Origin: Knoellia sp. Soil729
Lineage (GTDB): Bacteria > Actinomycetota > Actinomycetes > Actinomycetales > Dermatophilaceae
DNA: 64,000 nt
Assembly (NCBI RefSeq): GCF_001427985.1
Contig: NZ_LMSA01000002.1
Location: forward strand, 784,544 to 848,543
Direction: 5' to 3'
Under the pieces are notes generated by a model that saw only the letters and a program-made list of their open reading frames with translations, was not told the origin of the DNA and did no database searches. Within the stretch, counting starts at the first letter, position 1; each line of letters starts with the position of its first letter. This document shows positions 5,160-64,000 of the stretch, piece after piece. A program made the translations under genes and the position numbers.

Positions 5160-5247
5160 TGGCGGAGGATAGGGGATTCGAACCCCTGAGGGTGTTAACC
5201 CAACGCGCTTTCCAAGCGCGCGCACTAGGCCACTATGCGAATCCTCC
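5160..5247 (-). tRNA. tRNA-Ser, anticodon GGA
   Basis: Reading the minus strand, the acceptor GGAGGAT pairs with ATCCTCC, followed by discriminator G and an encoded CCA (5160-5162). The anticodon stem-loop is GCGCGCTTGGAAAGCGCG, giving GGA, which decodes UCC and UCU. A long variable arm (TTGGGTTAACACCCTC region) and T-loop GGTTCGAATCC confirm a class II serine tRNA. A hairpin terminator lies directly downstream. Confidence 0.96.
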
Positions 5248-9426: not shown

Positions 9427-9453
9427 CGGCAAACCACGGGTCATGATGGACCG

Positions 9454-9849: not shown

Positions 9850-9858
9850 GTCCTGCGC

Positions 9859-11487: not shown

Positions 11488-11567
11488 CTTCGGCACTCTA
11501 GTGCGAGCCGTTGGTGAGCAGCCGGCGGACATCGCGTCCTGATCCCGAGCCGGCCGACCCGGTCGGG

Positions 11568-16557: not shown

Positions 16558-16647
16558 GGTGGTGTGTCCGAGCGGCCTAAGGAGCACGCCTCGAAAGCGT
16601 GTGTGGGTGCAAGCCCACCGTGGGTTCAAATCCCACCGCCACCGCCA
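16558..16647 (+). tRNA. tRNA-Ser, anticodon CGA
   Basis: Acceptor GGTGGTG pairs with CGCCACC (one G-U), then discriminator G and encoded CCA at 16645-16647. The anticodon stem-loop ACGCCTCGAAAGCGT gives CGA, decoding UCG. The long variable arm (GTGGGTGCAAGCCCAC) and T-arm GGGTTCAAATCCC are clear. It is the second serine tRNA in this window; the two do not share sequence beyond class features. Confidence 0.96.
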
Positions 16648-46149: not shown

Positions 46150-47019
46150 TCAGATCCAGAGGCTGGTGCAGCGGATGTAGCCACCGCCCTTGGCGAGCTC
46201 GTCGACGTGCGGGGTGATGACGGCGAGGCCAGCGCTCTCGACGTCCGCCCGCAGCTGGGGGGCGCTGTCACTCATGACGACGGTCGTCCCGGTCGACACG
46301 AGGTTGCACGCGAAGGACTGACGCGCCTCGGACTCGGCGATCTCGATGGTGTCGACCGAGTCCAGCTCCGCGAGCCGCTCCCGCGACTGCGGCGTGAACG
46401 CCTCGGGGCAGTAGGCGATGAGTCCCTTGCCCAGTGAGTCCGGTTCGCGCAGAACCGAAAGCGTGAGGTCGATGTCGTACCAGTAGCTGTCGGGCCACCC
46501 GCTCGCCGCGTTGATGTGCGGGGTGCCGTCGTCGTTGAGCAGCGGCAACGTCTGGAGCTGGATGCGCTCGAGGCCGAAGTGCTGCGCGGCATACTCCAGG
46601 GCTGACTCGTCCGAGCGGTATCCGGCACCGCAGAACACGAGGTCACCACAGACCAAGGCGTCGCCCTGGCCGCTGAAGCGCCACGGCAGCGGCAGGTGGT
46701 CGATCTGGTAGCCGAGCTCGGCGAGCCGGTCGCGCGCCCAGGCCTCCTCGGACTGGCGCGACGGCGGCAGGGTCGCCATGAGCGCGCGACCACCACGCAC
46801 GAGGGCCCAGTTGGCGGTGTAGACACCGTCCTGGCTCGTGGGTGGCGCGTCGACCGTGACGATCTCGGCTCCGGCCGCACGCAGCGCCTCGCGGATGCCC
46901 GCGTGCTCTGCCTCGGCCTTGGCCGTGTCGACGGTGGCACCGTCCTCGTAGTAGGGGTTGAGCTTGTGGTCGTTGCCGAAGTAGTGGGCGGACGACATGA
47001 GCAGCGTCGAGTTCAACAC
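46150..47019 (-). CDS. Amidinotransferase/DDAH-fold protein with altered active site
   Basis: 289-residue protein of the guanidino-modifying superfamily. GTG 47019 is chosen because GGGAG lies 7 bases upstream and the first strand (STLLMSSAHYF) is included; ATG 46998 is possible. The order of blocks (SSAHYFGNDHKLNPYY start, PWRFSGQGDALV about 115, SYWYDIDLTLSVL about 185, final GGGYIRCTSLWI) matches dimethylargininase-like proteins. The nucleophilic Cys of the GGG-x-R-C motif is present. The usual acidic motif E-G-x-G-D reads SGQGD and the usual catalytic His (H-L-D) reads DID, so activity may be lost or altered. It lies 72 bases after larB on the same strand and may be the last gene of that operon. 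Confidence 0.7.
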   Translation of the reverse strand: MLNSTLLMSSAHYFGNDHKLNPYYEDGATVDTAKAEAEHAGIREALRAAGAEIVTVDAPPTSQDGVYTANWALVRGGRALMATLPPSRQSEEAWARDRLAELGYQIDHLPLPWRFSGQGDALVCGDLVFCGAGYRSDESALEYAAQHFGLERIQLQTLPLLNDDGTPHINAASGWPDSYWYDIDLTLSVLREPDSLGKGLIAYCPEAFTPQSRERLAELDSVDTIEIAESEARQSFACNLVSTGTTVVMSDSAPQLRADVESAGLAVITPHVDELAKGGGYIRCTSLWI

Positions 47020-47091
47020 CGTCAGACTCCCGTGCGGTCGAGGGCGCGCCTCACGGAAACGGAGACTCGGGGGCACGTTACCGCTTGGGAG

Positions 47092-47778
47092 TCACTCGTC
47101 CCACGGTGCGGCGATCTGGGCAGCCATGTGGCCGGCGCCGTAGCCGTTGTCGATGTTGACGACCGCCACCCCCGGCGCGCAGCTGTTGAGCATGGTGAGG
47201 AGCGGGGCCAAGCCCTCGAACGCGGCGCCGTAGCCCACGGAGGTCGGGACAGCGATGACGGGGGCGGCCACCAGTCCGGCGACGACGCCCGGGAGGGCCC
47301 CGTCCATCCCCGCGACCACGACGATGGCGCGCGCCTCCCTCAGCTGGTCGAGCCGGGACAGGATCCGGTGCAGCCCGGCCACGCCCACGTCGACGACGAG
47401 CTCCGCCGACCGTCCGAGGTGTTGCGCGACGAGCAGGGCCTCGCGGGCGACGGGCAGGTCCGATGTGCCGGCGGCCACGACGAGGACCTGGCCGCCGGTG
47501 GGCTCGGGCGGATGGGGTGGCCACGCGACCAGCCGGGCGGTCTCGTCGTGAGAGGCCCCGGGCAGCGCCGCGAGGATCGCGTCGACGTGGCCCTGTGCGG
47601 CCCGGGTGAAGAGCGTACGCGCACCCCGCTCCCCCACGGCGGCGGCGATGACCGCGACCTGCTCGGGGGTCTTGCCCTCGCAGTAGACCGCCTCCGGATA
47701 GCCCCGCCGCTGCTCCCGGTCGAGGTCGAGCTCGGCGATGTCACGCAGCGCCTCGCTCGGCTCCCAGTCGTCAGCCAC
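47092..47778 (-). CDS. larB: LarB, pyridinium-3,5-biscarboxylate mononucleotide synthase (nickel-pincer cofactor)
   Basis: 228-residue LarB, the first step of nickel-pincer-nucleotide (NPN) assembly. It carboxylates the nicotinate ring of NaAD and releases AMP. The start is GTG 47778, overlapping the larE stop by 8 bases; the upstream GTG would add residues inside larE. The C-terminal AIR-carboxylase-like domain is clear: VVAAGTSDLPVAREA about residue 100, MDGALPGVVAGLVAAPVIAVPTSVGYGAAFEGLAPLLTMLNSCAPGVAVVNIDNGYGA about 150-215. The Cys in LNSCA, about residue 200, is the one that forms a covalent adduct in studied LarB. It shares a message with larE and the importer. Confidence 0.9.
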   Translation of the reverse strand: MADDWEPSEALRDIAELDLDREQRRGYPEAVYCEGKTPEQVAVIAAAVGERGARTLFTRAAQGHVDAILAALPGASHDETARLVAWPPHPPEPTGGQVLVVAAGTSDLPVAREALLVAQHLGRSAELVVDVGVAGLHRILSRLDQLREARAIVVVAGMDGALPGVVAGLVAAPVIAVPTSVGYGAAFEGLAPLLTMLNSCAPGVAVVNIDNGYGAGHMAAQIAAPWDE

Positions 47779-48628
47779 GGGTCGTGGAGACGAGCGGCAG
47801 GGTGAAGGCTCCGGACTGGATGCCAGCCAGGTCAACAGTCACGAAACGGAACCCGGCAGAGCGCACCGCGGCGTTGACCTCGTCGCGCAGCCCCGGCTCG
47901 GTCGCTCGGGCGATGTCGTCGGGGAGCAGCTCGACCCGGGCGACCTCGCCGTGGTGGCGCACGCGGCAGTCGGCGAACCCCATTGCCCTCAGGGCCGCCT
48001 CGGCAGCCTCGACCTGGACGAGCTTCTCGGGAGACACGGTCTCGAAGTGCGGGATCCGCGAGGCGAGGCAGGGGGCGGCCGGCTTGTCGGCACACGGCAG
48101 CTCGAGGACACGGGCGATCCGTCGCACCGCCGCCTTGTCGAGCGCTGCGTCGGCGAGCGGTCGCAGCACCTCGTGGTCGGTCGCCGCGCGCGACCCCGGC
48201 CGATCGGGCCGGCGCGCGTCGTCGGCGTTCTCGCCGTAGGCCACCACGTCGATGCGGTGCGCCGCGACGACGGTGTCGTCGATGCGCGTGAAGAGCTCGT
48301 CCTTGCAGTGGAAGCAGCGGTCCGGTCCGTTGCGCTGGTATGCCGGGTTGTCACCTTCGTGGGTCCGCACCTCGACGACCGGGACACCGATGAAGGCGGC
48401 GACGTCGTGGGCCCCCGTGCGCTCATCGGCCGCCAGGCTCGGCGAGACACCGAGGATCGCGACGACGCGGTCGGCACCGACGGCTCGGGCTGCCAGCGCG
48501 AGAAGGGTGGCGGAGTCGACGCCACCGGAGTAGGCGACGCCGATCCGTCCGTGCGGTCCACACGAGTGGAAGGCACGAAGGACGTGGTCCACCCCGGACT
48601 GGTCCGGGCCGAACGTCACGTCCTTCAT
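47771..48628 (-). CDS. larE: LarE, sulfur transferase of nickel-pincer cofactor synthesis
   Basis: 285-residue PP-loop protein that converts the two carboxylates of the LarB product to thioacids. The ATP pyrophosphatase loop SGGVDSATLLAL lies about residue 34. Three cysteines, in RCFHCKDELF (about 105 and 108) and APCLASRIP (about 187), match the type that can bind a [4Fe-4S] cluster; the Lactobacillus type has only the last, sacrificial one. ATG 48628 is chosen (GAAGGTGGAA before it); GTG 48637 is possible. It is 49 bases downstream of the importer gene and 8 bases overlapped with larB. No larC, needed for nickel insertion, is in this window. Confidence 0.92.
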   Translation of the reverse strand: MKDVTFGPDQSGVDHVLRAFHSCGPHGRIGVAYSGGVDSATLLALAARAVGADRVVAILGVSPSLAADERTGAHDVAAFIGVPVVEVRTHEGDNPAYQRNGPDRCFHCKDELFTRIDDTVVAAHRIDVVAYGENADDARRPDRPGSRAATDHEVLRPLADAALDKAAVRRIARVLELPCADKPAAPCLASRIPHFETVSPEKLVQVEAAEAALRAMGFADCRVRHHGEVARVELLPDDIARATEPGLRDEVNAAVRSAGFRFVTVDLAGIQSGAFTLPLVSTTRG

Positions 48629-48677
48629 GCCTTCCACCTTCTCATTGATCTGCGGGGCTCAGGTCCCCTCCGGCGGG

Positions 48678-50147
48678 TCAGTCGATGACGTGACCGTCGG
48701 GGGCGATGAGGTGGCCCTGCTGCTGCTTGCGGTGCTCGGTCTCGTTGCGGATCTCACGGAAGCGATCGTCGGTGAGCGGGTACTTCCAGAAGATGAGCAT
48801 CGCGATGACCGCGGCGACGGCCGGGATGAGGCCCATCGTCGCCCGGATCGCCGTGATCGCGCTCTCGGGCTGGACCGGGTTGGCCACCGCAGCCGTCGCG
48901 GACAGGTAGCCACCCCAGGCGAGCGCCGCGGCGCCGAGTGCGCCACCGATGGACTGGGTGACCTTGCGGGTGAAGGAGAACAACGCGTAGGTCGTGCCCT
49001 CGGTACGCTTGCCGGACTTCCATTCGCCGTACTCGACCGTGTCGGCCTCGAGGCCGAACATGAGCGTGTTGATGAGGGCGGCGCCGATGCCCTTGATGCC
49101 CAGGAAGAGCAGCGCAGGGACGATCGCACCCACAGGGGTGAAGAACAGTGCAACGCCGCCGACGATGGTGAAGACGCCGCAGTACTGGAAGAGGGCGGTC
49201 TTGCCGAAACGGTCGACCATCTTCGGGATGAACGGCGCCGCGACGATCGACATGCCGGCGTTGACGAGGGTGATGTGGACCATGTACTTGACGTCGCCCA
49301 GGACGTACTGCGCGTAGTAGACCGAGGCACCACCAACGGCGAACAGCCCGATGAGGTAGAAGAAGCTCGACGCACACAGGTAGGCCAGCGGCTTGTTGCC
49401 CTTGAGCGTGTCCCAGGTGTCGCGCAGGCTGACGCGGGGCTGACTGCGCACGACCTTCTCGCGGCAGAAGTACCACGTGATCAGGTAGGAGAGGGTGCCG
49501 ATGACCATGAAGAGGAGCGTCGTCTGGGTGAAGATGCTCTGCACCTTCTCCTGGTAGTCAGCGGAGCTGAGCGTCTTCTTCTCTCCCTTCAGGCTGGAGA
49601 TCTGCGGGGAGATGATGAACGCCAGGACGAGGCCACCGGCGGCGCCACCGAAGAAGCGCGACGCGACGAGCTTGGCCCGCTCGTTGACCGACTGCGTCAT
49701 CGCCGAGGCGAGGGACCCATACGGGATGTTGACGAGCGAGTAGACGAGGCCGAGGCCGGCATACGTCACGTAGGCGTAGAGGAGCTTCGCGCCGTGGTCA
49801 AGAGAGGCCGGGACGTGGAAGGTCAGGAAGCTGAGGAAGAGCAGCGGCACCGCGCCGAACAGGATGAACGGCCGGAACTTGCCCATCCGAGTCATGGTCC
49901 GGTCGACGAGCCGTCCGGCGAACATGTCGGCAAAGGCGTCCCACAGGCGCACGACGAAGAACATCGTCGCGACCGAAGCGGCGGAGAGGCCGGCGACGTC
50001 GGTGTAGTAGTAGAGCAGGAAGGCTGTGCCGAGGCTGAACGCGAGGTTGTTGGCAAAGTCGCCGAACCCGTAACCGATGATCGAGCGCTTGGGCAAGCGC
50101 TCGTTCACGAACTGCTGAGCGATCTCCTCCTTCGACAGGATGGACAT
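48678..50147 (-). CDS. Glucuronide:cation symporter (GPH family, UidB/GusB-like)
   Basis: 489-residue 12-helix transporter. GPH-family signatures: GYGFGDFANNLAFSLGTAFLLYYYTDVAG about residue 25, RLWDAFADMFAGRLVDRT about 67, NIPYGSLASAM about 140, and GLEADTVEYGEWKSGKRTEGTTYALFSFTRK about 365, which closely parallels E. coli GusB. The cytosolic C-terminus is short and basic. A strong ribosome site (AAAGGAG, 6 bases upstream) precedes ATG 50147. Being first in an operon with larE and larB, and regulated by the same 15-base site as uxaC/larA and lacI/uidA, it most likely imports beta-glucuronides or free uronate. Confidence 0.88.
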   Translation of the reverse strand: MSILSKEEIAQQFVNERLPKRSIIGYGFGDFANNLAFSLGTAFLLYYYTDVAGLSAASVATMFFVVRLWDAFADMFAGRLVDRTMTRMGKFRPFILFGAVPLLFLSFLTFHVPASLDHGAKLLYAYVTYAGLGLVYSLVNIPYGSLASAMTQSVNERAKLVASRFFGGAAGGLVLAFIISPQISSLKGEKKTLSSADYQEKVQSIFTQTTLLFMVIGTLSYLITWYFCREKVVRSQPRVSLRDTWDTLKGNKPLAYLCASSFFYLIGLFAVGGASVYYAQYVLGDVKYMVHITLVNAGMSIVAAPFIPKMVDRFGKTALFQYCGVFTIVGGVALFFTPVGAIVPALLFLGIKGIGAALINTLMFGLEADTVEYGEWKSGKRTEGTTYALFSFTRKVTQSIGGALGAAALAWGGYLSATAAVANPVQPESAITAIRATMGLIPAVAAVIAMLIFWKYPLTDDRFREIRNETEHRKQQQGHLIAPDGHVID

Positions 50148-50272
50148 CCGAATCTCCTTTGACTCATGCGTTGTTGGCTTCTCCGAGCGGATGCTGGGGC
50201 CACGTTGCTGGACCGCGTTTTCGTTGTGCGTCTTCCTTCAACGTAGGGGCGGCTCCGGGTGCCTGGCGATGG

Positions 50273-50290
50273 GTTGTCACTAGTTGCCGT
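50273..50290. promoter_or_regulatory. Shared operator-like site R3 upstream of the importer-larE-larB operon
   Basis: TTGTCACTAGTTGCC (50274-50288), a two-half direct repeat with 10-base period, lies 127 bases before the importer start in a 162-base gap. The same 15-base pattern TTGYCACNAGTTGCC occurs at 57103-57117 and, on the minus strand, at 59451-59465. Confidence 0.7.
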
Positions 50291-50309
50291 GGCCTTGGGA
50301 GCGCCCTCC

Positions 50310-51317
50310 TCAGATGACTTCAGCAACCCGCTCCGGGTAGCTCTGGCCGTAGATGTCCTTGACGATGCGCAGAGACTTCTCGGCCTCAGCAGGGTTGAGC
50401 CAGAAGGGTTCTGGCACATCCAGCTGCGCATAGAAGTCCTTGATGAGGAGCTCGTGGGACACGCCCCAGTAGGCGCGGCCCGCCGAGGCCACGGCGCGCT
50501 CGGGAACGACCTCGACCGTGCCGTCCTCGTGGGTCACCGTGAGGTCGCCACGCAGGCTCAGCGTGGCTTTCTGCGTGAGGACGTCGAGCGTCACCGGGGC
50601 ATTGGTGACGTGGGCCAAGGTCGCATAGAAGACGCTCCTGACCCCACCCTCGTGGTCGGCGACGAACTCCGCCGTGTCCTCGACCTCGATGACGTCCCCG
50701 AGGGCTCGTGTCGACGCGTGCCCCACGACACTCGTCACGTCACCGACGAGCCACTGGAGCAGGTCGACGGTATGGATGGCCTGGTTCATGAGGAGCCCAC
50801 CGCCACCCCCGGCCCACGTCCCACGCCAGGGTCGGTCGCGGTAGTAGTCGCCGGTGCGGTGCCAGACGACCGTGGCCGAGGCACCCAGCACCGGACCGAG
50901 CGTCCCGGAGGTGAGCAGGCGGTGCATCTCCTGCGCCGTGGCGTTGTAGCGGTTCTGGTAGCAGACGCCGATCTTCGCGCTGCTGCGCTCGGCGGCCTCC
51001 ACGAGACGTCGGCCCTCGTCGAGGGTGTGCGCCAACGGCTTCTCGACGATGGCGTTCACGCCTGCGTCGAGACAGTCCACGGCGACCGACGCGTGTTGGT
51101 CGTGCGGGGTGCAGATGTGCACGACGTCGGGTGCGGCCTCGGCGATCATGGTCAGGTGGTCGGCGAAGCCAGGGACACCGTGGGCCGCCTCAGCGGCCGC
51201 GAGACGACCCGGGTCGGTGTCGCACACCGCCACCAGCTCGACGTCGTCCATCGTGGCCAGCGCCTCGAAGTGGATGATCGAGACGTCACCTCAACCGATG
51301 ACCGCTGCCCGAGTCAT
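50310..51317 (-). pseudogene. Gfo/Idh/MocA-family oxidoreductase with in-frame UGA at codon 9
   Basis: The gene begins at ATG 51317 (ATGA overlap with the TIM-barrel gene). It would encode M-T-R-A-A-V-I-G-[stop]-G-D-V-S-I-I-H-F-E: the TGA (51293-51291) replaces the residue, usually Cys, between the glycines of the GxGxxS Rossmann motif. The rest is intact (313 codons from ATG 51251): ADVVHICTPHDQHA about residue 90, then EKPLAHT with the catalytic Lys about 115, and the C-terminal domain to YPERVAEVI. Without the first turn it cannot bind NAD, so the present copy is predicted inactive unless the base is a sequencing error or is read through. It ends the uxaC operon. Confidence 0.8.
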
Positions 51318-52171
51318 ACGAGGGTGACGTCGTTCTTGGCGGCGAGCCCGGCGAAGGCCCGGGCTGCACGACCGAAGGCCACGGGCCCGGAGAAGCCGCC
51401 CAGCTCGTGGGCACTGGCGAGGTGCGGCTCCAGGGAGGCGTAGCCGGCATACCCGTCGGCCTTGAGGGCCGCGATGGTGGCGTCGAGCTCACCGTCACCC
51501 TCGCCGGAGGGCACGACCTCGCCGGTGGCGGCGATGGCGTCCTTGACCTGGAAGTACTCGAGCCAGGGGCGCAGCATGGCGTAGCCGTCGGTGTGCGGTT
51601 TCACCCCGACCTGGACGAAGTTGGCGTTGTCCCACGCGATCCGCAGGGCCGGCGAGTCGACCGACTGCATGATGTCGAGCACCCGCTCGGGGATGTCGCC
51701 GTAGATGCCCTTCTCGTTCTCGTGCAGCAGCACCACCCCCTCGGCTGCGGCGAGCTCGGCCAGCGCCGAGAGGCGCTCGATGACGGCGTCGCGGATCTCG
51801 TCCTGGCTCTGACCCTCGCCGCGGTAGAAGGAGAAGATCCGGATGTAGGTCGTGTCGAGCCCCTTGGCCACGGAGATGATCTGCCGCAACCGCTCGACCT
51901 CGTGCTCGACAGGCAGGCTCACGTCGACCTTGCCGATGGGGCTGGCGACGGCCGAGACCTTGAGGCCTTGGGCGTCGAGGACGTCCTTGAGCTCGCCGAC
52001 CTGCTCGGGCGTGAGCTCCGAGACGTTGGTGCCCCAGGCGCTGCGCACCTCGATGTGGCTGGCGCCGAGGGCGAGCAGCACGGCGGCCTGCACCGCAGGA
52101 TCGGGGTCGACCTCGTCGCCGAAGCCCGACAGCTGCCACGTGGTGGTGGGTCCCGCCACGTCGGCGCTCAC
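51314..52171 (-). CDS. Xylose-isomerase-like TIM-barrel protein (sugar phosphate isomerase/epimerase family)
   Basis: 285-residue AP-endonuclease-2/xylose-isomerase-like barrel. GTG 52171 sits in a GTGA overlap with the preceding oxidoreductase. Metal-ligand stretches: ASHIEVRSAWG about residue 40, HENEKGIYGDIPE about 150, DNANFVQVGVKPHTDGY about 180, and FQVKDAIAATGEVVPSGEGDGELD about 215, ending GYASLEPHLAS about 250. The Glu-Asp-His-Glu metal set is visible. It pairs with an oxidoreductase on each side. Such pairs are found in oxidative glycoside cleavage and inositol pathways. The substrate is not assigned. Confidence 0.78.
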   Translation of the reverse strand: MSADVAGPTTTWQLSGFGDEVDPDPAVQAAVLLALGASHIEVRSAWGTNVSELTPEQVGELKDVLDAQGLKVSAVASPIGKVDVSLPVEHEVERLRQIISVAKGLDTTYIRIFSFYRGEGQSQDEIRDAVIERLSALAELAAAEGVVLLHENEKGIYGDIPERVLDIMQSVDSPALRIAWDNANFVQVGVKPHTDGYAMLRPWLEYFQVKDAIAATGEVVPSGEGDGELDATIAALKADGYAGYASLEPHLASAHELGGFSGPVAFGRAARAFAGLAAKNDVTLV

Positions 52172-53334
52172 AGCTCCACGCTCCACTTGCCCTCGTCCTT
52201 GATGCGTCTGTCCAGCTCGGCCAGGTAGTCCGCCTCGTCGAAGTCGAGGGGAACCTCGGTGCCCTTCCAGCTCGAGAGGTGGATGGCGTTCGCAAGGCGC
52301 ACCCCCTGTATGCCGTCCGACCCGGGTGCGAGGAGGGGCGTGCCGTCGAGGATGTTGGCCGCGAAGTTCTCGAGGACACCGGAGTGCTGCTCGCCCCAGG
52401 CCGACTCGAACTCGATGACCTCGGTCACGGCCAGCTCGGCCATGTCGAGCTCACCCATGAAGAGCTTGCGCACGTCCTCGACATCCATGCCCTCGCTCAG
52501 CTCGCGCTCGGGCTTGGTGAGGCGGGTGATCGTGGCCGTCTTGCTGTTCTCGACGACGATCTTGCCCTGCTCGCCGAGGATCTCGAAGCGGTCGGTGCCG
52601 ACGAGGTCGTGGGTCGCGGTGACGAAGACACCCGTGGCGCCGTCGCCGTAGTCGAGGACCGCGGTCACCTCGTCCTCCACCGCGATGTCGCGCCGGAAGC
52701 CGTAGGCCACCTTGGAGTAGACCGACTTGGGGACGCCACAGATCCACTGCAGCAGGTCCAGCTGGTGCGGTGCCTGGTTGACGAGAACCCCTCCACCCTC
52801 GCCACCCCAGGTGGCGCGCCACTCGCTGGAGTCGTAGTAGCCCTGCGGGCGCCACCAGTTCGTGATGATCCAGTTGGTGCGCCGGATGCCGCCGATCTCG
52901 CCGTTGTCGACGATCTCCTTGAGCCGCTGGTAGAGCGGGTTGTTGCGCTGGTTGAACATGATCGCGAAGGTCAGCTCGGGCTTGGTCGCCGCGAACTCGT
53001 TGAGGGCCCTGACCTGCTTGGTGTAGACCCCGGCCGGCTTCTCCACGAGGACGTGGAGGTTGCGCTCGAGGGCCTCGATGCCCATCTGCGGGTGGAGGAA
53101 GTGCGGCACGCAGGTGACCACGGCATCGACCTCACCGCTGTCCATCATCGCCAGGTAGTCGTCGAAGAACGGCACGTCCGGGTACGCCTCGGCGGCGAGG
53201 GCCTTCTTGTCGGGGTTGGGGTCGCTGATGGCCCCGATCACCATGTTGGGCACCATGCCCTTGCTGATGAACGTGGCATAGGCGCCACCCTGCTGGCCCA
53301 GGCCGATGATGCCGAGGCGAACCTGCTTGCTCAT
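52168..53334 (-). CDS. Gfo/Idh/MocA-family oxidoreductase
   Basis: 388-residue NAD-dependent sugar dehydrogenase family member with an intact Rossmann motif LGIIGLGQQGGAY at the start. VVTCVPHFLHPQM about residue 72 and EKPAGVYTKQVRALNEF about 97 hold the catalytic Lys. WRATWGGEGGGVLVNQAPHQLDLLQW about 180 carries the conserved His/Asp. This region resembles glycoside 3-dehydrogenases. ATG 53334 is preceded by GGAGAG 7 bases upstream. It overlaps the TIM-barrel gene by 4 bases (GTGA). Probably oxidises a hexose, hexuronate or glycoside hydroxyl. Confidence 0.83.
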   Translation of the reverse strand: MSKQVRLGIIGLGQQGGAYATFISKGMVPNMVIGAISDPNPDKKALAAEAYPDVPFFDDYLAMMDSGEVDAVVTCVPHFLHPQMGIEALERNLHVLVEKPAGVYTKQVRALNEFAATKPELTFAIMFNQRNNPLYQRLKEIVDNGEIGGIRRTNWIITNWWRPQGYYDSSEWRATWGGEGGGVLVNQAPHQLDLLQWICGVPKSVYSKVAYGFRRDIAVEDEVTAVLDYGDGATGVFVTATHDLVGTDRFEILGEQGKIVVENSKTATITRLTKPERELSEGMDVEDVRKLFMGELDMAELAVTEVIEFESAWGEQHSGVLENFAANILDGTPLLAPGSDGIQGVRLANAIHLSSWKGTEVPLDFDEADYLAELDRRIKDEGKWSVEL

Positions 53335-53391
53335 GTCGTGACTCTCCGTCGAGGGGATGTGGCGGTGGATGTGGGGCGGTCAGAGGTGTGG

Positions 53392-54249
53392 TCAGAAGAG
53401 GTCCGCGTGGCCCAGGGCCACGAGGTTGTCGTGCGAGGTCTGGAGTGCCTCCCAGACGGTGCGGCCATAGAGCTCGTCCTGCTCCACGAGGAGGTACCGC
53501 GCGCCGGCGCCGAGTGCGGCCGGGACGATCGAGGCGAAGTCGAGGTTGCCCTCACCCACCTCGGCGAACTGGACGACGTTCTTGAACTCCGTCATGAAGC
53601 CGGGGAAGTCACCCGCATCCAAGAGCCCGAAGGCGGAGTCGGCCAGCATCCCGACGCGGTAGTCCTTGAGGTGGACCATCGCCGTGCGGCCGGCATACTT
53701 CTCGATCGTCCGGACCGGGTCGAAGCCGCCGCGCTGGACCCAGTGCACGTCGATCTCAAGACCCATGGCGGGCGAGTTCTCGGCGATGGTGTCGAGGAGG
53801 AGGGTGCCGTCGACCTTGGCAAACTCGATGTGGTGGTTGTGGTAGTAGAGGCCAAGACCGTTCTCCTGCAATCGTTCTGCATACTCGTTGGCTTGCTTTG
53901 CGAAGTCGACGACAGCCTCGGCCGACTTCATGGCGGGCAGCGGCAGCATGCCGATGCGCAGGAGCGAGGTGCCGAGACGCTTGGCGTCGTCGACGACCTT
54001 GGCGAAGTGGTCCTTGAGCGAGTCGCCCGGCATGCCCTTGGGCGTCTCCATCGCCACGGACAGCGCAGCGATGTCCATGCCGAGCTCGTCACGCGCCCGT
54101 TCCAGCTCGGCGACGTTCTCGGGCGTCATCGCGATCTGCGAGATCTCGACGGCGTGATAGCCGATCTCGCTCACCTTGCGGAGCGTCTCGAACGCCCCCA
54201 CCTCGGCGACGCTCTCCTTGAGCATCATGGCTTGGACACCAATGGTCAC
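53392..54249 (-). CDS. Xylose-isomerase-like TIM-barrel protein, first copy
   Basis: 285-residue member of the sugar phosphate isomerase/epimerase family. GTG 54249 lies in a GTGA overlap with the UxuB-like gene. Metal-site segments: GYHAVEISQIAM about residue 30, GLGLYYHNHHIEFAK about 128, MGLEIDVHWVQRGGFDP about 165, MVHLKDYRVG about 190, and EVGEGNLDF about 230. It resembles IolE/IolI-like enzymes and TIM-barrel partners of oxidative deglycosylation. It is only 25-30 % like the second barrel at 51314 by eye. Its message continues into the intact oxidoreductase 57 bases later. Confidence 0.8.
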   Translation of the reverse strand: MTIGVQAMMLKESVAEVGAFETLRKVSEIGYHAVEISQIAMTPENVAELERARDELGMDIAALSVAMETPKGMPGDSLKDHFAKVVDDAKRLGTSLLRIGMLPLPAMKSAEAVVDFAKQANEYAERLQENGLGLYYHNHHIEFAKVDGTLLLDTIAENSPAMGLEIDVHWVQRGGFDPVRTIEKYAGRTAMVHLKDYRVGMLADSAFGLLDAGDFPGFMTEFKNVVQFAEVGEGNLDFASIVPAALGAGARYLLVEQDELYGRTVWEALQTSHDNLVALGHADLF

Positions 54250-55661
54250 TGGACTTCCTTCCCTTGCGCTTCGAGTGATTCGACCTGTTGCACGATGGTT
54301 GCGGCGAGGCCCTTGTCGCCAAGCCCGAGCCACTCGAGAACTCGATCGACGCCGTTGTCGACCGAGCCGTCCACGAGCCCCCTCAGCAGGTCCGACTGCG
54401 TGTCCGTCACCGGTGCGCCGGCACCTCGCAAGTGCGCCACCCACGCGGAGACGAGGCGGAGTGCACCGGGGCTGGCCGGTCCCTGCTCCAGCTCGGCCGA
54501 GATGACCGGCGTTGCGCGGATCGGGATCTTCTGCGACCCGTCGGCGGCGATCTGGGCCAGTAGATGACGGATGTTGGCGTTGGAGTAGCGCTCCAGCAGG
54601 GCCTCGCGGTAGGCCGTGACCTCCGCCTCCGGGAGGGGCAGGTGTCGCCCCGCGGCGTCCCACCACTCCTGCACCCACTGGCGGACCTGCGGGTCGGCGA
54701 TCGCGTCGGCGACGGTCTCGTGGCCGAGGATCGATGCACCGTAGGCCATGAGGGAGTGCGAGCCGTTGAGCATCCACAGCTTGCGCTGCTCGAAGGGTGC
54801 CACCTCGTCGACGAAGCGGGCACCCACGGCGTCCCACGCGGGACGACCTCCGGGGAAGTCGCCGGCCAGGACCCACTCTGTGAACGGCTCCGTGGGAACG
54901 ACCTCGGGGTCGTCGACTCCGGCGAGCGATCGGACGTCCGCGCAGTCGGTGTCGGTGGTGCGCGGGGTGATGCGGTCCACCATCGTCGTGACGAACGAGA
55001 CGTGTTCGTCGATCCAGAGCTGCAGCGTCTGGTCCACCTCGGCCACGAGGTCGGCGACGACGTGCGACACCATCGCCCCGTTGTGGGGGACGTTGTCGTT
55101 GGGGACGATCGCGATCGCTCCGGCCCCGGCGGCGCGGCGGGCAAGGAGCCCTGCGACGAGCCGGCCGGGGGTCGTGGTCACGACACCCTGCCGTGGATCG
55201 GCTTTCAGGGCCGCGACGTCGGCGCGCACGGCTTCGTCCCGCAGGTCGAGGCCTCCGTCGGCGTCGCGCCGGTAGCCGGCCTCGGTCACGGTGAGGGTGA
55301 CCACGGCGACCTCGGGCCGCGAGAAGTAGTCGCGCAGGGCGTCCAGGTCGGCGCCGGGGTGGACCGCGGAGAGGCTGGAGACGACCTCCGGCTGGGGTGC
55401 CTGCGGGCCTCGCACGAGGAGTGTGTAGAGCCCGTCCTGCTCGGCGAGGGACTCGGCCGCCGCCGGCGAGCGTCCCGTGAACGCCGCGATGCCCCACTCG
55501 GCAGCGTCGGGAGCGTGCTCGGTGTACCAGGCCGCGTGCGCCCGGAAGAAGTTGCCGAGGCCGAGGTGGATGATCCGCACCGGCGCAGCGGGGCGGCCGT
55601 GGGCAGTCCGCGAGAGGCGCGGGAGGTCGGCGCCGCTGGCAGTCAGCTCTGCGCCGCTCAC
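54246..55661 (-). CDS. uxuB: Fructuronate reductase / mannonate dehydrogenase-like enzyme
   Basis: 471-residue member of the mannitol dehydrogenase long-chain family. GTG 55661 overlaps the uxaC stop (GTGA). The NAD fold begins VRIIHLGLGNFFRAH about residue 25. The second-half catalytic motif is KLWMLNGSHSLMAYGA about 285 (the Lys-Asn-His set). IVPNDNVPHNGAMV about 175 is the PNDN-type block typical of UxuB/UxaB. The order and overlap with uxaC strongly suggest reduction of D-fructuronate to D-mannonate. Tagaturonate reductase or mannitol dehydrogenase are less likely in this context. Confidence 0.86.
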   Translation of the reverse strand: MSGAELTASGADLPRLSRTAHGRPAAPVRIIHLGLGNFFRAHAAWYTEHAPDAAEWGIAAFTGRSPAAAESLAEQDGLYTLLVRGPQAPQPEVVSSLSAVHPGADLDALRDYFSRPEVAVVTLTVTEAGYRRDADGGLDLRDEAVRADVAALKADPRQGVVTTTPGRLVAGLLARRAAGAGAIAIVPNDNVPHNGAMVSHVVADLVAEVDQTLQLWIDEHVSFVTTMVDRITPRTTDTDCADVRSLAGVDDPEVVPTEPFTEWVLAGDFPGGRPAWDAVGARFVDEVAPFEQRKLWMLNGSHSLMAYGASILGHETVADAIADPQVRQWVQEWWDAAGRHLPLPEAEVTAYREALLERYSNANIRHLLAQIAADGSQKIPIRATPVISAELEQGPASPGALRLVSAWVAHLRGAGAPVTDTQSDLLRGLVDGSVDNGVDRVLEWLGLGDKGLAATIVQQVESLEAQGKEVQ

Positions 55662-57070
55662 AGCTTGAACGCCTTGCTCGGGATGCTCGTCACGAGATCG
55701 ACGGCGGTCTCGTGCGCCTCCTCCTCGGTCAGCCGGTGCTCGGTGACGAGCTGGGCGAGGTATGCCGCGTCGAGACGACGCGACATGTCGTGCCGTGCCG
55801 GGATCGACAGGAACGCACGGGTGTCGTCGATGAAGCCCGAGGTGCGGTAGAAGCCGGCCGTCTCGGTGACGGCACCGCGATAGCGGCGCACCGCCTCGGG
55901 TGCGTCGAGGAACCACCAGGGCGCACCGGCATACACGCTGGGATAGAAGCCGGCGAGCGGCGCGATCTCGCGAGAGAAGACGGTCTCGTCGAGCGTGAAG
56001 AGCACCAGCTGGAAACCGTCGGTCGTGCCGAACCGGCCCAGAAGGTGATGCAGGCCGCGCGTGAACTCGACGCCGATGGGGATGTCGTGACCGGTGTCGG
56101 GACCGAAGCGGTCGAACGTCGGCGTGTGGTGGTTGCGCAGGGAGCCGGGGTGCAGCGTCATGACGAGGCCGTCCTCGGTCGCCATGCGCGCCATCTCGAC
56201 GAGCATGTGGCGACGGAAGGCGGTGGCCTCGGCCTCGCTCGCGTCACCGGTCAGAGCTGCCCTGTAGATGCGGTCCGCCTCGTTGCGCTCGAGCGTGAGA
56301 GTCACGACGTCGGCGTGGCTGTGGTCGGTCGAGACGCCGCCGTTGGCCTTGAAGAAGCGGCGACGGTCCTCGAGCGCGGCGAGGTAGCCGGCATACGTGG
56401 AGGTGTCGATGTCGGCAGCCACACCAAGCGACTTGGCGAGCTCGGAGAAGTCGGGGCGAGCGGCCTCGAGGTAGCGGTCGGGGCGGAACGTGGGCGCGAC
56501 GCGGGTCGCGACCGTCGGGTCGGCGGCCAGGGTGCGGTGGTGCTCGAGCGAGTCGACCGGATCGTCGGTCGTGGCGAGGACGGAGATGCCGAAGCGCTCT
56601 GTCAGGGCACGCGGCCGGAACTGCGGCGTGGTCAGGGCTGCGGCAATCTGGTCGTAGATGAGGTCGGCGGTCTCGGCGGACGGCTGCTGCTCGATGCCGA
56701 AGACCTCGGCGAGCACGCTCTCCATCCAGAACTTGCTGGCGGTGCCCCGGAACGCGGGCCAGTTCTGGCAGAAGAGCCGCCAGGCCGGGCGCGAGCCCGC
56801 CTCGTCGATCTGCGTGCCCCCGACGCCGAGGTCGGCCAGCGGCACACCTTGGGCATGGAGCAGCCGGAAGATGTAGTGGTCGGGCGAGAGGAGCAGGGAC
56901 GTGGGGTCGGAGAACGGCGTGTCCTGGGCGAGCCACTCCGCCGGCACGTGGCCGTGCGGCGAGATGATCGGCAGCCCTGCGGTCGCGGCATACAGGCGGC
57001 GGGCGACGTCGCGGGTGCCGGGGTCTGCGGGCAGGAGCCGATCGGGCTGCAGTGAGGTCATGTCCAGCAT
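55658..57070 (-). CDS. uxaC: Uronate (glucuronate) isomerase
   Basis: 470-residue amidohydrolase-fold isomerase, same length as E. coli UxaC, converting D-glucuronate to D-fructuronate. The N-terminal metal motif is PIISPHGHVPAEWLA about residue 30 (HxH). WRLFCQNWPAF about 90, FGISVLATTDDPVDSLEHH about 160 and SIPARHDMSRRLDAAYLAQLV about 430 fit the family. ATG 57070 (MLDMTSLQ) is chosen; ATG 57061 is an alternative. It is the first gene of a six-gene operon (uxaC-uxuB-TIM-oxidoreductase-TIM-oxidoreductase) and diverges from larA with 90 bases between. Confidence 0.92.
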   Translation of the reverse strand: MLDMTSLQPDRLLPADPGTRDVARRLYAATAGLPIISPHGHVPAEWLAQDTPFSDPTSLLLSPDHYIFRLLHAQGVPLADLGVGGTQIDEAGSRPAWRLFCQNWPAFRGTASKFWMESVLAEVFGIEQQPSAETADLIYDQIAAALTTPQFRPRALTERFGISVLATTDDPVDSLEHHRTLAADPTVATRVAPTFRPDRYLEAARPDFSELAKSLGVAADIDTSTYAGYLAALEDRRRFFKANGGVSTDHSHADVVTLTLERNEADRIYRAALTGDASEAEATAFRRHMLVEMARMATEDGLVMTLHPGSLRNHHTPTFDRFGPDTGHDIPIGVEFTRGLHHLLGRFGTTDGFQLVLFTLDETVFSREIAPLAGFYPSVYAGAPWWFLDAPEAVRRYRGAVTETAGFYRTSGFIDDTRAFLSIPARHDMSRRLDAAYLAQLVTEHRLTEEEAHETAVDLVTSIPSKAFKL

Positions 57071-57100
57071 CGTGGCCCTGCGCGCGGTGGCCCGTCCACG

Positions 57101-57132
57101 GGTTGCCACCAGTTGCCCGGCACCCTTGCCAC
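57101..57132. promoter_or_regulatory. Shared operator-like site R1 between uxaC and larA
   Basis: TTGCCACCAGTTGCC (57103-57117), plus a third half-site CTTGCCAC (57125-57132), lies 33 bases from the uxaC start and 44 from the larA start. Its two halves are 10 bases apart, as in R2 and R3, so one protein could control both divergent genes. Confidence 0.72.
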
Positions 57133-57160
57133 AGGTTCGCGACGCAGCGAGAGTGAGGTC

Positions 57161-58453
57161 ATGACATCGACCCTTGAGGAGTCCCCCGCCCAGGCCGCAA
57201 CCCGCGCGGCGAGAATCGGCGACGAACACGGCGTCCTCACCACCGAGCAGGTGACGGCCTTCATCGCCGCACAGCTCGCGCAGGTCGACGTCGACGGCAG
57301 GAGCGTGTGCATCGTCGTCCCCGACGGCACCCGCACCTGCCCCCTGCCGATGCTCATGGGCGCCGTGCACACCGCGCTCGACGGCCGCGCCAGCCGGATG
57401 ACCGCCCTCATCGCACTCGGCACCCACCAGCCGATGAGCGAGGAGGCCCTCGCCAAGCACCTGGGCTACGAGGTCGGGGTCATCGAGGAGACCTATCCCG
57501 GCCTGACGGTCCTCAACCACGAGTGGTGGAAGCCGGAGTCGTTCGCCGACCTCGGCACGATCCCGGCCTCACGCCTGGCCGAGCTGTCCGAGGGCCGGCT
57601 CACCATGGACGTGCCGGTCCACCTCAACAAGGCCGTCGTCGAGCACGACATCGCCCTCGTCGTCGGCCCCGTCCTGCCCCACGAGGTCGTCGGGATGTCC
57701 GGCGGCAACAAGTACTTCTTCCCGGGCGTGGCCGGTCAGGACATCATCGACGTCTCCCACTGGATCGGCGCCCTCATCACCTCCGCCGAGATCATCGGGA
57801 CCACCGCGGTGACACCGGTGCGTGCGCTCATCAACGAGGGCGCGGCGCTCGTGCCCGCCGAGAAGCTCGCCCTGTGTGTCGTCGGTGAGGCCGGCAGCCT
57901 GGACCTTCACTCGGTCTCGTTCGGCGACCCGGTCGCCTCGTGGGCGAGCGCGTCGGAGGTCAGTGCGGCGACGCACGTGCACCACCTCGATGCGCCCGTG
58001 TCGCGGGTCATCTCGGTCATCCCCGAGATGTACGAGGACATCTGGACGGGCGCCAAGGGGTTCTACAAGCTCGAGCCGGTGGTCGCCGACGGTGGCGAGG
58101 TCATCCTCTATGCGCCGCACATCACCGAGATCTCCACGAGCCACCCCGAGATCCTCGAGATCGGCTACCACTGCCGCGACTACTTCGTGAAGCAGTGGGA
58201 CCGCTTCAAGCACATCCACTGGGGCACGCTTGCCCACTCGACCCACCTGCGTGGCGCCGGGACCTTTGACGCCGAGACCGGTGAGGAGCGGCTGCGGGTC
58301 AAGGTCACCCTCGCCACCCGGATCCCCGAGGAGCAGTGCCGTCAGGCGAACCTGGGCTACGTGGACCTGGACTCGATCGACCTCGCGGCCGAGGCCGAGG
58401 CTGGCACGTTCGTGGTGCCCAACGCCGGCGAGGTGCTCTTCCGGCTCGGCTGA
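57161..58453 (+). CDS. LarA-family nickel-pincer hydroxy-acid epimerase, predicted D-mannonate/D-gluconate 2-epimerase
   Basis: 430-residue LarA-family protein (DUF2088 N-domain plus C-domain). All active-site features are present: PDGTRT (Asp55, Arg58), the proton-shuttling His in ALGTHQPMS (His89) and PHEVVG (His174), the NPN-linked Lys in SGGNKYFFPG (Lys184), and the nickel-ligand His in DVSHW (His200). Spacing His174-Lys184-His200 equals that of Lactobacillus LarA. ATG 57161 follows GAGTGAGG. The family epimerises C2 of alpha-hydroxy acids, and a D-gluconate 2-epimerase is known among relatives. Placed between uxaC/uxuB (making D-mannonate) and gnd/gluconokinase (using D-gluconate), D-mannonate to D-gluconate is the best fit. 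Lactate racemase is the default label and less likely. Confidence 0.85.
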   Translation: MTSTLEESPAQAATRAARIGDEHGVLTTEQVTAFIAAQLAQVDVDGRSVCIVVPDGTRTCPLPMLMGAVHTALDGRASRMTALIALGTHQPMSEEALAKHLGYEVGVIEETYPGLTVLNHEWWKPESFADLGTIPASRLAELSEGRLTMDVPVHLNKAVVEHDIALVVGPVLPHEVVGMSGGNKYFFPGVAGQDIIDVSHWIGALITSAEIIGTTAVTPVRALINEGAALVPAEKLALCVVGEAGSLDLHSVSFGDPVASWASASEVSAATHVHHLDAPVSRVISVIPEMYEDIWTGAKGFYKLEPVVADGGEVILYAPHITEISTSHPEILEIGYHCRDYFVKQWDRFKHIHWGTLAHSTHLRGAGTFDAETGEERLRVKVTLATRIPEEQCRQANLGYVDLDSIDLAAEAEAGTFVVPNAGEVLFRLG

Positions 58454-59430
58454 GCCGTCGAGCGACGGACGACGAGCTTGACGGGCATGACGAGCGGCTC
58501 GCGGGAGGTGGCCTGCGCACCCTGGGCCATGGCGACGAGGTTGCGCACCGCCGTCTCGCCCTGCTGGCGCAAGGGCGACGCCACGGTCGTGAGCTCGGGC
58601 TCGACCACCTCGGCGAGCAGGATGTTGTCGAACCCGATGACGCTCACGTCCTCGGGGACCGAGACCCCCATCCGGTGCAGCCCCTTGATGACGCCGATCG
58701 CGAGCACGTCGTTGTAGGCGATCACCGCCGTCGTCGACTGCGACATGATCTCGCGAACCCGCGCGAAGCCGGCGTCGATCGTCGGCTTCTGCGTCGGCCC
58801 CACCCGGCGGATCTTCATCTCGAGCTCGAAGCCCGCCTCTCGCAGCGCCTGCCAGCGGACGCCGTCGGTCCAGCTCGCCTCGGGCCCGCTGACATAGGTC
58901 ACCGACGTGTGGCCGAGCTCGCCCAGGTGCTCGAGTGCCCGGCGGGCACCTCGCGCGTTGTCGACGAGCAGGCACGGCACCTCGGGGAGGCGCCGGTTGA
59001 GGACGACCACGGGCTTCTGCTTCGCCAAGGTGCGGATCGTGCTGTCCGACATCCGCGAGCTCGCAAGCACGACACCCTCGACGGTCGACAGCTCGTGCTC
59101 GATCCAGGCACGCTCGACGTCGGCATCCTCACGGGTGTGCGAGAGCCGCATCGTGTAGCCGAGGTCAGCCGCCGCCTCGTGGGCGCCGCGGATGATCTCC
59201 GCATAGAACGGGTTCGTGATGTCGGTGACCACCAGGGCCAGGGTTCGGGTGCGCGAGGTCGTGAGCCCGGGCAGCACCGAGGTCCGGTAGCCCAGCTCAC
59301 GGGCCGCCTCGAAGATTCGCGCCGCCGTCTCTGCGTTGACCCGGCCGGGTCGGGCGAATGCCCTCGAGACTGTCGACGCGGCGACACCCGCGGCTTTCGC
59401 CACGTCGTAGATCGTCGGCCGCTGTGCCAC
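58357..59430 (-). CDS. LacI-family transcription regulator
   Basis: 357-residue repressor from GTG 59430. The helix-turn-helix PTIYDVAKAAGVAASTVSRAF lies in the first 30 residues. The ligand-binding periplasmic-protein-like domain runs about 60-335 (ALVVTDITNPFYAEIIRGA, VVLASSRMSD, VLNRRLPEVPCLLVDN, VTYVSGPEASWTDGVRWQAL, and AYNDVLAIGVIKGLHRMGVSVPEDVSVIGFDNILLAE). The last 25-30 residues run antisense into the end of larA (97-base tail-to-tail overlap). Divergence from uidA, and the shared 15-base site directly before its own start, make it the likely regulator of the island. The inducer is probably a uronate or a pathway intermediate. Confidence 0.88.
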   Translation of the reverse strand: MAQRPTIYDVAKAAGVAASTVSRAFARPGRVNAETAARIFEAARELGYRTSVLPGLTTSRTRTLALVVTDITNPFYAEIIRGAHEAAADLGYTMRLSHTREDADVERAWIEHELSTVEGVVLASSRMSDSTIRTLAKQKPVVVLNRRLPEVPCLLVDNARGARRALEHLGELGHTSVTYVSGPEASWTDGVRWQALREAGFELEMKIRRVGPTQKPTIDAGFARVREIMSQSTTAVIAYNDVLAIGVIKGLHRMGVSVPEDVSVIGFDNILLAEVVEPELTTVASPLRQQGETAVRNLVAMAQGAQATSREPLVMPVKLVVRRSTAQPSRKSTSPALGTTNVPASASAARSIESRST

Positions 59431-59443
59431 GTGCCCAACCTAG

Positions 59444-62781
<3,338 letters not shown>

Positions 62782-62782
62782 C

Positions 62783-64000
62783 ATGACCATCCCCAGCCCC
62801 TATCCGCCGGCCGAGGTCGTCATCGGCCTCGACGTCGGCACGACCGGCACGAAGGCCGTCGCGTTCGGGCTGGGGTCGAGCTGGCGCCACACAGTCGTGC
62901 GGGAGTACCCGCTCCTCGCACCCCGCCCCGGGTGGCAGGTGCAGGACCCTGCAACCGTCGTCGCCGCCGTGATGGGTGCGCTGGCCGAGGTCGTCACGGC
63001 AGCCAAGGGCGCCCGGGTCTCGGGCATCTCGGTGAGCACGGCCATGCACGGCCTCATCGGCCTTGATGAGTCCCTGCGACCCCTCACCCCGCTCATCACC
63101 TGGGCCGACTCCCGTGCGGTGGCGGAGGCCGCCGAGCTGCGCGCCTCCGACGAGGCCGAGTCGCTGCACACCGCCTCCGGCACACCGATCCACCCCATGA
63201 GCCCGCTGACCAAGCTCATCTGGTTCAGCCGCCACGAGCCGCAGCTCGCAGCCAAGGTCCGCGCATGGGTCGGCCTCAAGGACTACATCCTCCAGGCCCT
63301 CACCGGCACCTCGGCCACCGAGCTGTCCACGGCCTCGGCCACCGGCCTCCTGGACGCCTCCACACGCTCGTGGAACCCGCGGGCGATCGAGCTGGCCGGC
63401 ATACGGGAGGACCAGCTCCCACCGATCCTGCCCACGACCGCCGTGCTCGGACTCACCAAGTCCGTGGCGTCGCGCCTCGGACTCGCGACGGCGACCCCTG
63501 TCATCGTCGGCGCAGGCGACGGACCGCTCGGCAACCTCGGGACCGGTGCCCTCGACCCGGGTGTCGTCGGGCTTTCGGTGGGAACCAGCGGTGCCGCCCG
63601 GATGGTCGTGCCCGGCCCCCGCACGGACCCCTCGGGCCGACTCTTCTGCTACGCCCTCACCGACTCCGAGTGGGTCGTGGGTGGCGCCATCAGCAACGGC
63701 GGCATCTCGATCCGGTGGGCCCGCGACATCCTCGGTGACGGCGGTGGTGACGACGCTGCCCTCCTCGAGCTGGCTGCCACCGTGCCTGCGGGCAGCGACG
63801 GTCTCGTGATGCTGCCCTACCTGCTCGCCGAGCGTGCTCCCCTGTGGGACCCCTCGCTCACCGGTGCCATCATCGGAGTCCAGCACTCGCACACCCGAGG
63901 CCACTTCGTGCGGGCCGTCGTCGAGGGCGTCGCCCTGCAGCTGTGGACGATCGTCGACGGACTCGACGCCGTGAGTCCGGTGACCTCGGTACGCGCGACC
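62783..64000 (+). CDS. gntK: Gluconokinase (FGGY family), 3' end cut by window edge
   Basis: 406 residues visible of an FGGY kinase, usual size about 500. The FGGY-N ATP/substrate motif VIGLDVGTTGTKAVAF starts at residue 13. STAMHGLIGLDESLRPLTPLITWADSRAV about 75-103 is the stretch that distinguishes B. subtilis-type gluconokinases from xylulo- and glycerokinases. KDYILQALTGTSATELSTASATGLLD about 160 and VVGLSVGTSGAARMVV about 250 (the ATPase GTS motif) follow. ATG 62783 is separated from gnd by one base. It would phosphorylate the D-gluconate made by the LarA-type epimerase and pass it to Gnd. Xylulokinase cannot be excluded until the C-terminus is seen. Confidence 0.86.
   Translation, partial: MTIPSPYPPAEVVIGLDVGTTGTKAVAFGLGSSWRHTVVREYPLLAPRPGWQVQDPATVVAAVMGALAEVVTAAKGARVSGISVSTAMHGLIGLDESLRPLTPLITWADSRAVAEAAELRASDEAESLHTASGTPIHPMSPLTKLIWFSRHEPQLAAKVRAWVGLKDYILQALTGTSATELSTASATGLLDASTRSWNPRAIELAGIREDQLPPILPTTAVLGLTKSVASRLGLATATPVIVGAGDGPLGNLGTGALDPGVVGLSVGTSGAARMVVPGPRTDPSGRLFCYALTDSEWVVGGAISNGGISIRWARDILGDGGGDDAALLELAATVPAGSDGLVMLPYLLAERAPLWDPSLTGAIIGVQHSHTRGHFVRAVVEGVALQLWTIVDGLDAVSPVTSVRAT

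Follow-up and report, generated by a model that had tools for sequence, protein, structure and literature searches.

How D-mannonate is disposed of in a glucuronide island that lacks a neighbouring mannonate dehydratase is the question raised by a stretch of DNA from Knoellia sp. Soil729. The window analysed is the whole 64,000-nucleotide stretch (G000:C2:784544-848543) of a 3.6 Mb genome that is 99.99% complete. From position 47092 it carries, on the minus strand, larB, larE, a gusB-like gene, a Gfo/Idh gene, a TIM-barrel gene, a second Gfo/Idh and a second TIM-barrel gene, uxuB-like and uxaC, followed by larA (plus), lacI (minus) and uidA, gnd and gntK (plus). A complete larC comes right after gntK, beyond the window end, so that larA, larB, larC and larE all lie inside the island. 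Every gene named in the initial annotation, which was made from the letters alone, was found at or near the place given to it there. We conclude that the island probably encodes a beta-glucuronide pathway, in which a predicted nickel-pincer LarA protein sends mannonate as gluconate to the pentose-phosphate pathway.

In the order of steps predicted here, along which carbon would flow in vivo, a member of the GusB-like importer family would take up glucuronides, UidA would release glucuronate and UxaC would isomerise it to fructuronate, which the UxuB-like reductase would convert to mannonate at the expense of NAD(P)H. The nickel-pincer-dependent LarA would epimerise mannonate to gluconate, GntK would phosphorylate the latter to 6-phosphogluconate with consumption of ATP, and Gnd would form ribulose-5-phosphate and CO2, returning NADPH. 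If the cofactors of the UxuB-like reductase and Gnd match, the route would be redox-neutral down to ribulose-5-phosphate.

LarA is most likely the D-mannonate/D-gluconate 2-epimerase that joins UxaC-UxuB to GntK-Gnd, a role suggested by its active-site signature, its closest structure (GntE2), the conservation of the cassette, the alternation with mannonate dehydratases and a shared candidate operator. The initial annotation had proposed this bridge and a complete active site, and on this evidence we favour the former and confirmed the latter: the catalytic residues D55, H89, H174 and K299 and the nickel-pincer nucleotide (NPN) residues R58, K184 and H200 are all present. According to the accessible text of PMC11770544, D-gluconate 2-epimerases are marked by E, V, A and H at LarA F175, F176, W358 and T359. 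The window LarA has E175, V176, A358 and H359, invariant in 40 of 40, A358 and H359 having been mapped via structure 4nar with no direct alignment to LarA; the parts of PMC7583248 consulted place GntE2 N348 (G355 in the window LarA) opposite W358. By sequence and by fold the best structure match is 4nar, the Thermotoga GntE2, to which the window protein is 32-35% identical, and for T. maritima GntE2 epimerisation of D-mannonate and D-gluconate was measured (Desguin et al. 2020, as described in PMC7583248). The window LarA shares with GntE1, GntE2 and LarAH15 the catalytic and NPN residues, the E-V/S-A-H pocket signature and the best fold match 4nar; unlike these, its substrate is a prediction and it lies below each NCBIfam LarA equivalog cut-off. 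Its assignment as an NPN_18 hexonate epimerase (NF052594) was rejected at 168 bits against a cut-off of 500. GntE1 of C. glutamicum (LarAH group 19) was not named among the matches listed in two protein searches, and a control C. glutamicum genome gave no Lar_N match; a C. faecale protein is 53% identical to the window LarA.

UxaC, UidA, Gnd, LarB, LarE and LarC passed the curated NCBIfam cut-offs. For the GusB-like and UxuB-like proteins, GntK and LarA, the relevant family was the best or near-best match, yet under its cut-off, the GusB-like protein falling just short with the PRK09848 glucuronide transporter model (514 bits, cut-off 528). The reductase has mannitol dehydrogenase family domains, is 36% identical to E. 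coli UxuB and retains a K-x4-N-x2-H motif, to which we assume a functional role. It is classed merely as UxuB-like, as the fructuronate reductase cut-off was not reached (PRK15037, 245 bits against 603) and a D-arabinitol dehydrogenase model is close at 241. The island gnd is the sole long-type 6-phosphogluconate dehydrogenase match in the genome, the other match being short (90 bits). Likewise, the kinase is classed merely as gluconokinase-like, TIGR01314 being the best of its families at 390 bits but under its cut-off of about 648-649. This shortfall would suit an order in which the FGGY kinase phosphorylates D-mannonate first and LarA epimerises 6-phosphomannonate to 6-phosphogluconate. We regard this as unlikely, as the closest solved kinase, 3gbt (302 bits; next best 198), is a gluconate kinase, and mannonate without a phosphate is the substrate of two LarA relatives that share the pocket signature. 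The mannonate kinase/6-phosphomannonate 2-epimerase route of Lactobacillus suebicus also joins the isomerase pathway to 6-phosphogluconate but, as PMC6978723 relates in the part available, there the kinase precedes the epimerase and the genes are unidentified.

Conservation of the cassette was counted in the fetched flanks of 80 LarA loci from named genomes. UxaC lies at 34 of these, accompanied by a UxuB relative at 28, by Gnd and/or GntK at 15 (both at 5) and by a larB/C/E gene at 14, whereas UxuA, ManD, 2-keto-3-deoxy-6-phosphogluconate (KDPG) aldolase and KdgK were found within the fetched flank at none of the 80. As controls, 20 UxaC loci of LarA-negative genomes were hand-picked down a ranked list; Gnd was present at one, GntK and larB/C/E at none and a dehydratase at 13. 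Gnd/GntK near UxaC differs between LarA loci and controls (15/34 vs 1/20; Fisher p 0.002, no kinship correction). Two controls (L162, L165) are glucuronide islands with UxaC, UxuB, UidA, GusB and LacI in which ManD replaces LarA-GntK-Gnd.

The alternation with dehydratases was also observed on the scale of whole genomes. In a sample of 396 genomes of the order, LarA matches occurred in 65. Of these, 43 were strong, another 21 were weak, at about 27-32% identity, and the remaining one, a fragment (G029), fell outside both classes and was counted LarA-negative. Weak UxuA matches (G127, G167, G203, G258, G362; no LarA genome among them) were dropped. LarA together with UxaC and without UxuA, part of a combination that the initial annotation had suggested looking for, was the rule among strong-LarA genomes: 41 of 43 have UxaC, which is missing in G097 and G122, and none has UxuA. 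ManD exceeded its cut-off in 126 of the 396 genomes, including 22 of the 41 with LarA and UxaC; the other 19 carry neither UxuA nor ManD. In comparison, 99 of 110 UxaC-positive genomes without an assigned LarA class have UxuA or ManD, and 11 have neither (19/41 vs 11/110; Fisher p 2.9e-6, no kinship correction). By hand count, 12 of the 19 dehydratase-free genomes belong to one family, and altogether they cover 9 genera and 7 families. A scan of 29 LarA genomes yielded no KDPG aldolase in 10, all of them with UxaC and without UxuA and ManD; two of the 10 (G030 and G016) are 88% and 92% complete. In these 10 the exit via 2-keto-3-deoxygluconate looks closed by these searches, and LarA, GntK and Gnd would provide one. 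The single-contig genome G213 holds uxaC, uxuB, larA, gntK, gnd, larB, larC and larE all within 20 kb.

Other LarA genes have neighbourhoods of a different kind. The Knoellia locipacati contig of G122 (L066/L133) has larA, larB, larC and larE together, acyl-CoA dehydrogenases and a permease as neighbours and no UxaC in the genome, and two Mycobacterium sp. loci (L009, L010) and that of G097 (L140) show larC-larB-larE, a UxuB relative and larA with no UxaC nearby, in G097 also none genome-wide. Such LarA genes, with UxaC absent from the neighbourhood or from the whole genome, would be in line with epimerisation of some other acid from uronate metabolism, for instance an aldarate, a suggestion already made for C. 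glutamicum GntE1. The KM of that enzyme for D-mannonate is 120 mM, and those who described it doubt mannonate as the native substrate and suggest D-glucarate/D-mannarate instead (PMC7583248, in the passages available). We consider this quite improbable for the window LarA, given the linkage to Gnd/GntK, the alternation with dehydratases and an E-V-A-H pocket common to enzymes assayed on mannonate.

A candidate operator recurs across the island. Visual inspection of two window sites, in the uxaC/larA and lacI/uidA gaps, gave the motif GGCAACTSGTGGCAAY, which is found again with two mismatches ahead of gusB and is thus present at three promoter regions. As it was derived from two of these sites, the count in the window is circular, and only the third site and those in relatives are independent. 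It is exact or nearly exact at the corresponding gaps in L003, L004, L005, L006 and L008, and G213 (L144) has it between uxaC and larA, near lacI and, in two copies, some 150-200 bases before the inferred gnd start. With up to two mismatches allowed, 5, 2 and 3 hits were seen in L144, L003 and L005 vs 0.005-0.015 in shuffled copies; none was found in L066 or in two stretches (L122 and L124) of contig C3 described below. The site is direct-repeat-like, and such an operator is unusual for LacI regulators, so that the identity of the regulator is a guess; our guess would be the LacI-family protein of the island.

A second uronate cluster is present in this genome. A PF03786 search found no UxuA in the whole genome, and by itself it would mislead, as ManD was found by an enolase-family search. 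On C3, at about 367.9-380.6 kb (L122/L124), lie a ManD (704 bits, cut-off 550), a second UxaC (505 bits, cut-off 387), a UxuB-like reductase (358 bits), a KdgK-like kinase (143 bits, cut-off 400), KDPG aldolase, a UxaA/GarD-like dehydratase and an ABC transporter. The statement that this genome lacks a mannonate dehydratase was rejected on this account, and the cluster offers mannonate a second exit. Of the three enzymes that the initial annotation gave as not in the window (UxuA, KDG kinase and KDPG aldolase), UxuA was not found in the genome either, but a KdgK-like kinase and KDPG aldolase are there, with ManD. Nor is the bypass of the Entner-Doudoroff branch, also put forward in the initial annotation, supported for this genome; it fits better the 19 of 41 genomes with LarA and UxaC but without UxuA and ManD. 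Since the C3 cluster is complete by homology, glucuronate carbon might here run mainly via UxaC2-UxuB2-ManD-KdgK-KDPG aldolase, with the LarA branch being minor or a reversible valve feeding gluconate to ManD. We give this very little weight: the candidate operator of the island was not found at C3 with up to two mismatches, the nearest relation of the C3 UxaC in a tree is to a UxuA-linked copy, and dehydratase-free genomes leave only the gluconate direction open. Contig C6 carries at about 92.9-95.6 kb (L123) a galactonate dehydratase (560 bits), a KDPG-type aldolase and a PfkB kinase together, which we take to be a De Ley-Doudoroff-like set.

It is most improbable that LarA acts one step earlier, turning D-fructuronate (5-dehydro-D-mannonate) into 5-dehydro-D-gluconate for reduction to D-gluconate by the UxuB-like enzyme. 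The idea has chemistry in its favour, these ketoacids being C2 epimers, and the likeness of the reductase to fructuronate reductase is only moderate (245 bits, cut-off 603). However, GntE2 acts on mannonate, and keto-uronate activity is unreported for LarA homologues in the literature covered.

Several observations weigh against mannonate/gluconate epimerisation as the link in a dedicated cassette. ManD accompanies LarA and UxaC in 22 of 41 genomes, this one included, and two LarA genomes, G097 and G122 (the latter of the same genus), are without UxaC. UxaC, UxuB, Gnd and GntK are all missing from the flank at 32 of 80 LarA loci, some on short contigs; 19 of the 34 UxaC-bearing loci, many from Actinoplanes relatives, have neither Gnd nor GntK nearby; and L160, from a LarA-negative genome, has Gnd adjoining UxaC. 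Finally, the KM of GntE1 is high, and LarA, the UxuB-like reductase and GntK remain under NCBIfam equivalog cut-offs.

The outline of the route is already known. Conversion of mannonate via gluconate to 6-phosphogluconate was proposed for Thermotoga (Rodionova et al. 2012, as cited in PMC6978723, PMC7583248 and PMC3750489), and the same texts, in the portions seen, give the T. maritima operon as gnd-uxaRED-gntEK. The remark in the initial annotation that no uronate pathway of this form had been described was thus overtaken by the proposal of 2012 and the measurement of GntE2 in 2020; we dropped the description of the pathway as new, since several papers cite the proposal and one reports an assay. 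As far as these sources describe it, the Thermotoga route likewise has a uronate isomerase branch, a LarA homologue converting mannonate to gluconate, gluconate kinase and 6-phosphogluconate dehydrogenase, and the clustering of larA/gntE with these genes was found in the window and its relatives. In contrast, it is fed by galacturonate or pectin via UxaE under the GntR-family UxaR, whereas the island has UidA and the GusB-like protein for beta-glucuronides and a LacI-family regulator. In addition, no UxaE was noticed in the island, larB/C/E lie inside it and its LarA is only 32-35% identical to GntE2. With the canonical glucuronate pathway (UxaC-UxuB-UxuA or ManD-KdgK-KdgA) the island shares the UxaC and UxuB-like start; where that pathway goes on to the dehydratase branch, the island has LarA, GntK and Gnd, the canonical set being on another contig. 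The island is likely a separately regulated, beta-glucuronide-fed variant of the known route. As far as open-licence PMC texts show, three points are new: this form fed by beta-glucuronides, which has a LacI-type regulator candidate of its own, the exchange with ManD/UxuA, and the assignment of NPN_18 to such a cassette.

The last point concerns a second LarA subfamily. Six weak-class proteins reach 571-584 bits with NF052594 (NPN_18, 'putative hexonate epimerase'; cut-off 500), for which a hexonate substrate is merely hypothesised in the part of PMC7583248 consulted. L125, L126 and L130 have the order larB-larE-lacI-gnd, then larA-uxaC-uxuB-gntK; in L127, L128 and L129, larA, uxaC, uxuB, larB and larE are clustered, with gntK in L128 and uxuA too in L129, and in G200 larA stands apart from the rest. 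Between L130 and the window, UxuB identity is 58%, and LarA proteins of the two subfamilies share only 26-27%. By coordinates, at most 5 kb separate weak-class LarA from UxaC in 8 of 20 UxaC-positive genomes (7 of the 20 were fetched, mostly adjacent cases), and UxuA is present in 7 of 21 weak-class genomes. A strikingly constant LarA-UxaC gap of about 48-54 kb on one contig was seen in G031, G047, G105, G119, G175 and G200. L128 has at 9050-12120 an NPN_18-type LarA in two open pieces (two matches were also obtained for G266), from a broken gene or an assembly error. In a UxaC tree of 80 rows (79 different, several genomes entered twice), the island copy and those of NPN_18 cassettes fall in a LarA-rich part, and the second UxaC, that of C3, pairs with the UxuA-linked G017 copy (100/100). 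On this tree 7 changes of the LarA label suffice vs 23.8 when shuffled, the opposite label 'deh' meaning not from a LarA genome rather than dehydratase seen. We lean towards the view that uronate catabolism is a swappable cassette in several actinobacterial families, in which one UxaC-UxuB front end leads either to a mannonate dehydratase or to a nickel-pincer epimerase with gluconokinase and Gnd, with two LarA subfamilies in one slot and the nickel route sometimes as sole mannonate exit.

Table 1. Features of the glucuronide island (window positions).
Feature	Position	Strand	Basis
larB, nickel-pincer cofactor synthesis	47092..47835	-	NF033503 282 bits, over cut-off 175
larE, sacrificial sulfur transferase	47771..48637	-	TIGR00268 264 bits, over cut-off 150
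GusB-like glucuronide:cation symporter (GPH family)	48678..50147	-	gph subfamily model 407 bits, over cut-off 231
Candidate operator before gusB-larE-larB, with 2 mismatches	50273..50288	-	motif search
Gfo/Idh/MocA oxidoreductase	50310..51251	-	Pfam; also beside LarA at other loci
Xylose-isomerase-like TIM-barrel protein	51314..52186	-	PF01261
Gfo/Idh/MocA oxidoreductase	52168..53334	-	Pfam
Xylose-isomerase-like TIM-barrel protein	53392..54249	-	PF01261; start codon inferred
UxuB-like reductase, predicted D-fructuronate to D-mannonate	54246..55661	-	PRK15037 245 bits; start codon inferred
uxaC, glucuronate isomerase	55658..57070	-	PRK02925 556 bits, over cut-off 387
Candidate operator, uxaC/larA divergent promoter region	57102..57117	-	motif
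larA homologue, predicted D-mannonate/D-gluconate 2-epimerase	57161..58453	+	4nar best structure; catalytic residues, E-V-A-H
LacI-family regulator	58357..59430	-	many LacI-family models, none over equivalog cut-off
Candidate operator, lacI/uidA divergent promoter region	59451..59466	+	motif
uidA, beta-glucuronidase	59543..61327	+	PRK10150 879 bits, over cut-off 544; ATG start
gnd, NADP-dependent 6-phosphogluconate dehydrogenase (decarboxylating)	61324..62781	+	TIGR00873 645 bits, over cut-off 427
gntK, FGGY gluconokinase-like	62783..64000, on to window-equivalent 64315	+	TIGR01314 390 bits, below cut-off
larC, complete	window-equivalent 64315-65544, past window end	after gntK	LarC1 204 bits, over cut-off 90

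Within the island, two Gfo/Idh/MocA oxidoreductases and two xylose-isomerase-like TIM-barrel proteins occupy 50310-54249, and a relative of the TIM-barrel protein TIM1 is present at 20 of 80 LarA loci. Since these proteins are alike in kind to C3-oxidising glycoside-cleaving systems, as far as the literature seen describes them, a non-hydrolytic glycoside branch is possible by analogy. A dimethylargininase-like gene (46150-47076; 131 bits, cut-off 300) adjoins larB, and elsewhere in the window three tRNA-Ser were called (2389-2486, 5160-5247 and 16558-16647), two with the identical anticodon gga.

If the proposed route is correct, nickel-pincer enzymes would serve a mainstream route of carbon metabolism beyond Thermotoga, in actinobacteria of aerobic type, and glucuronate would enter as ribulose-5-phosphate with no net reducing power spent. 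This would bear on growth on plant or host glucuronides and on uronate feedstock engineering, and it would be relevant to genomes that seem unable to use glucuronate for want of UxuA and ManD. The LarA group NPN_18 would have a testable substrate, and, if the cassette is indeed swappable, this unassigned 'putative hexonate epimerase' group would gain its substrate.

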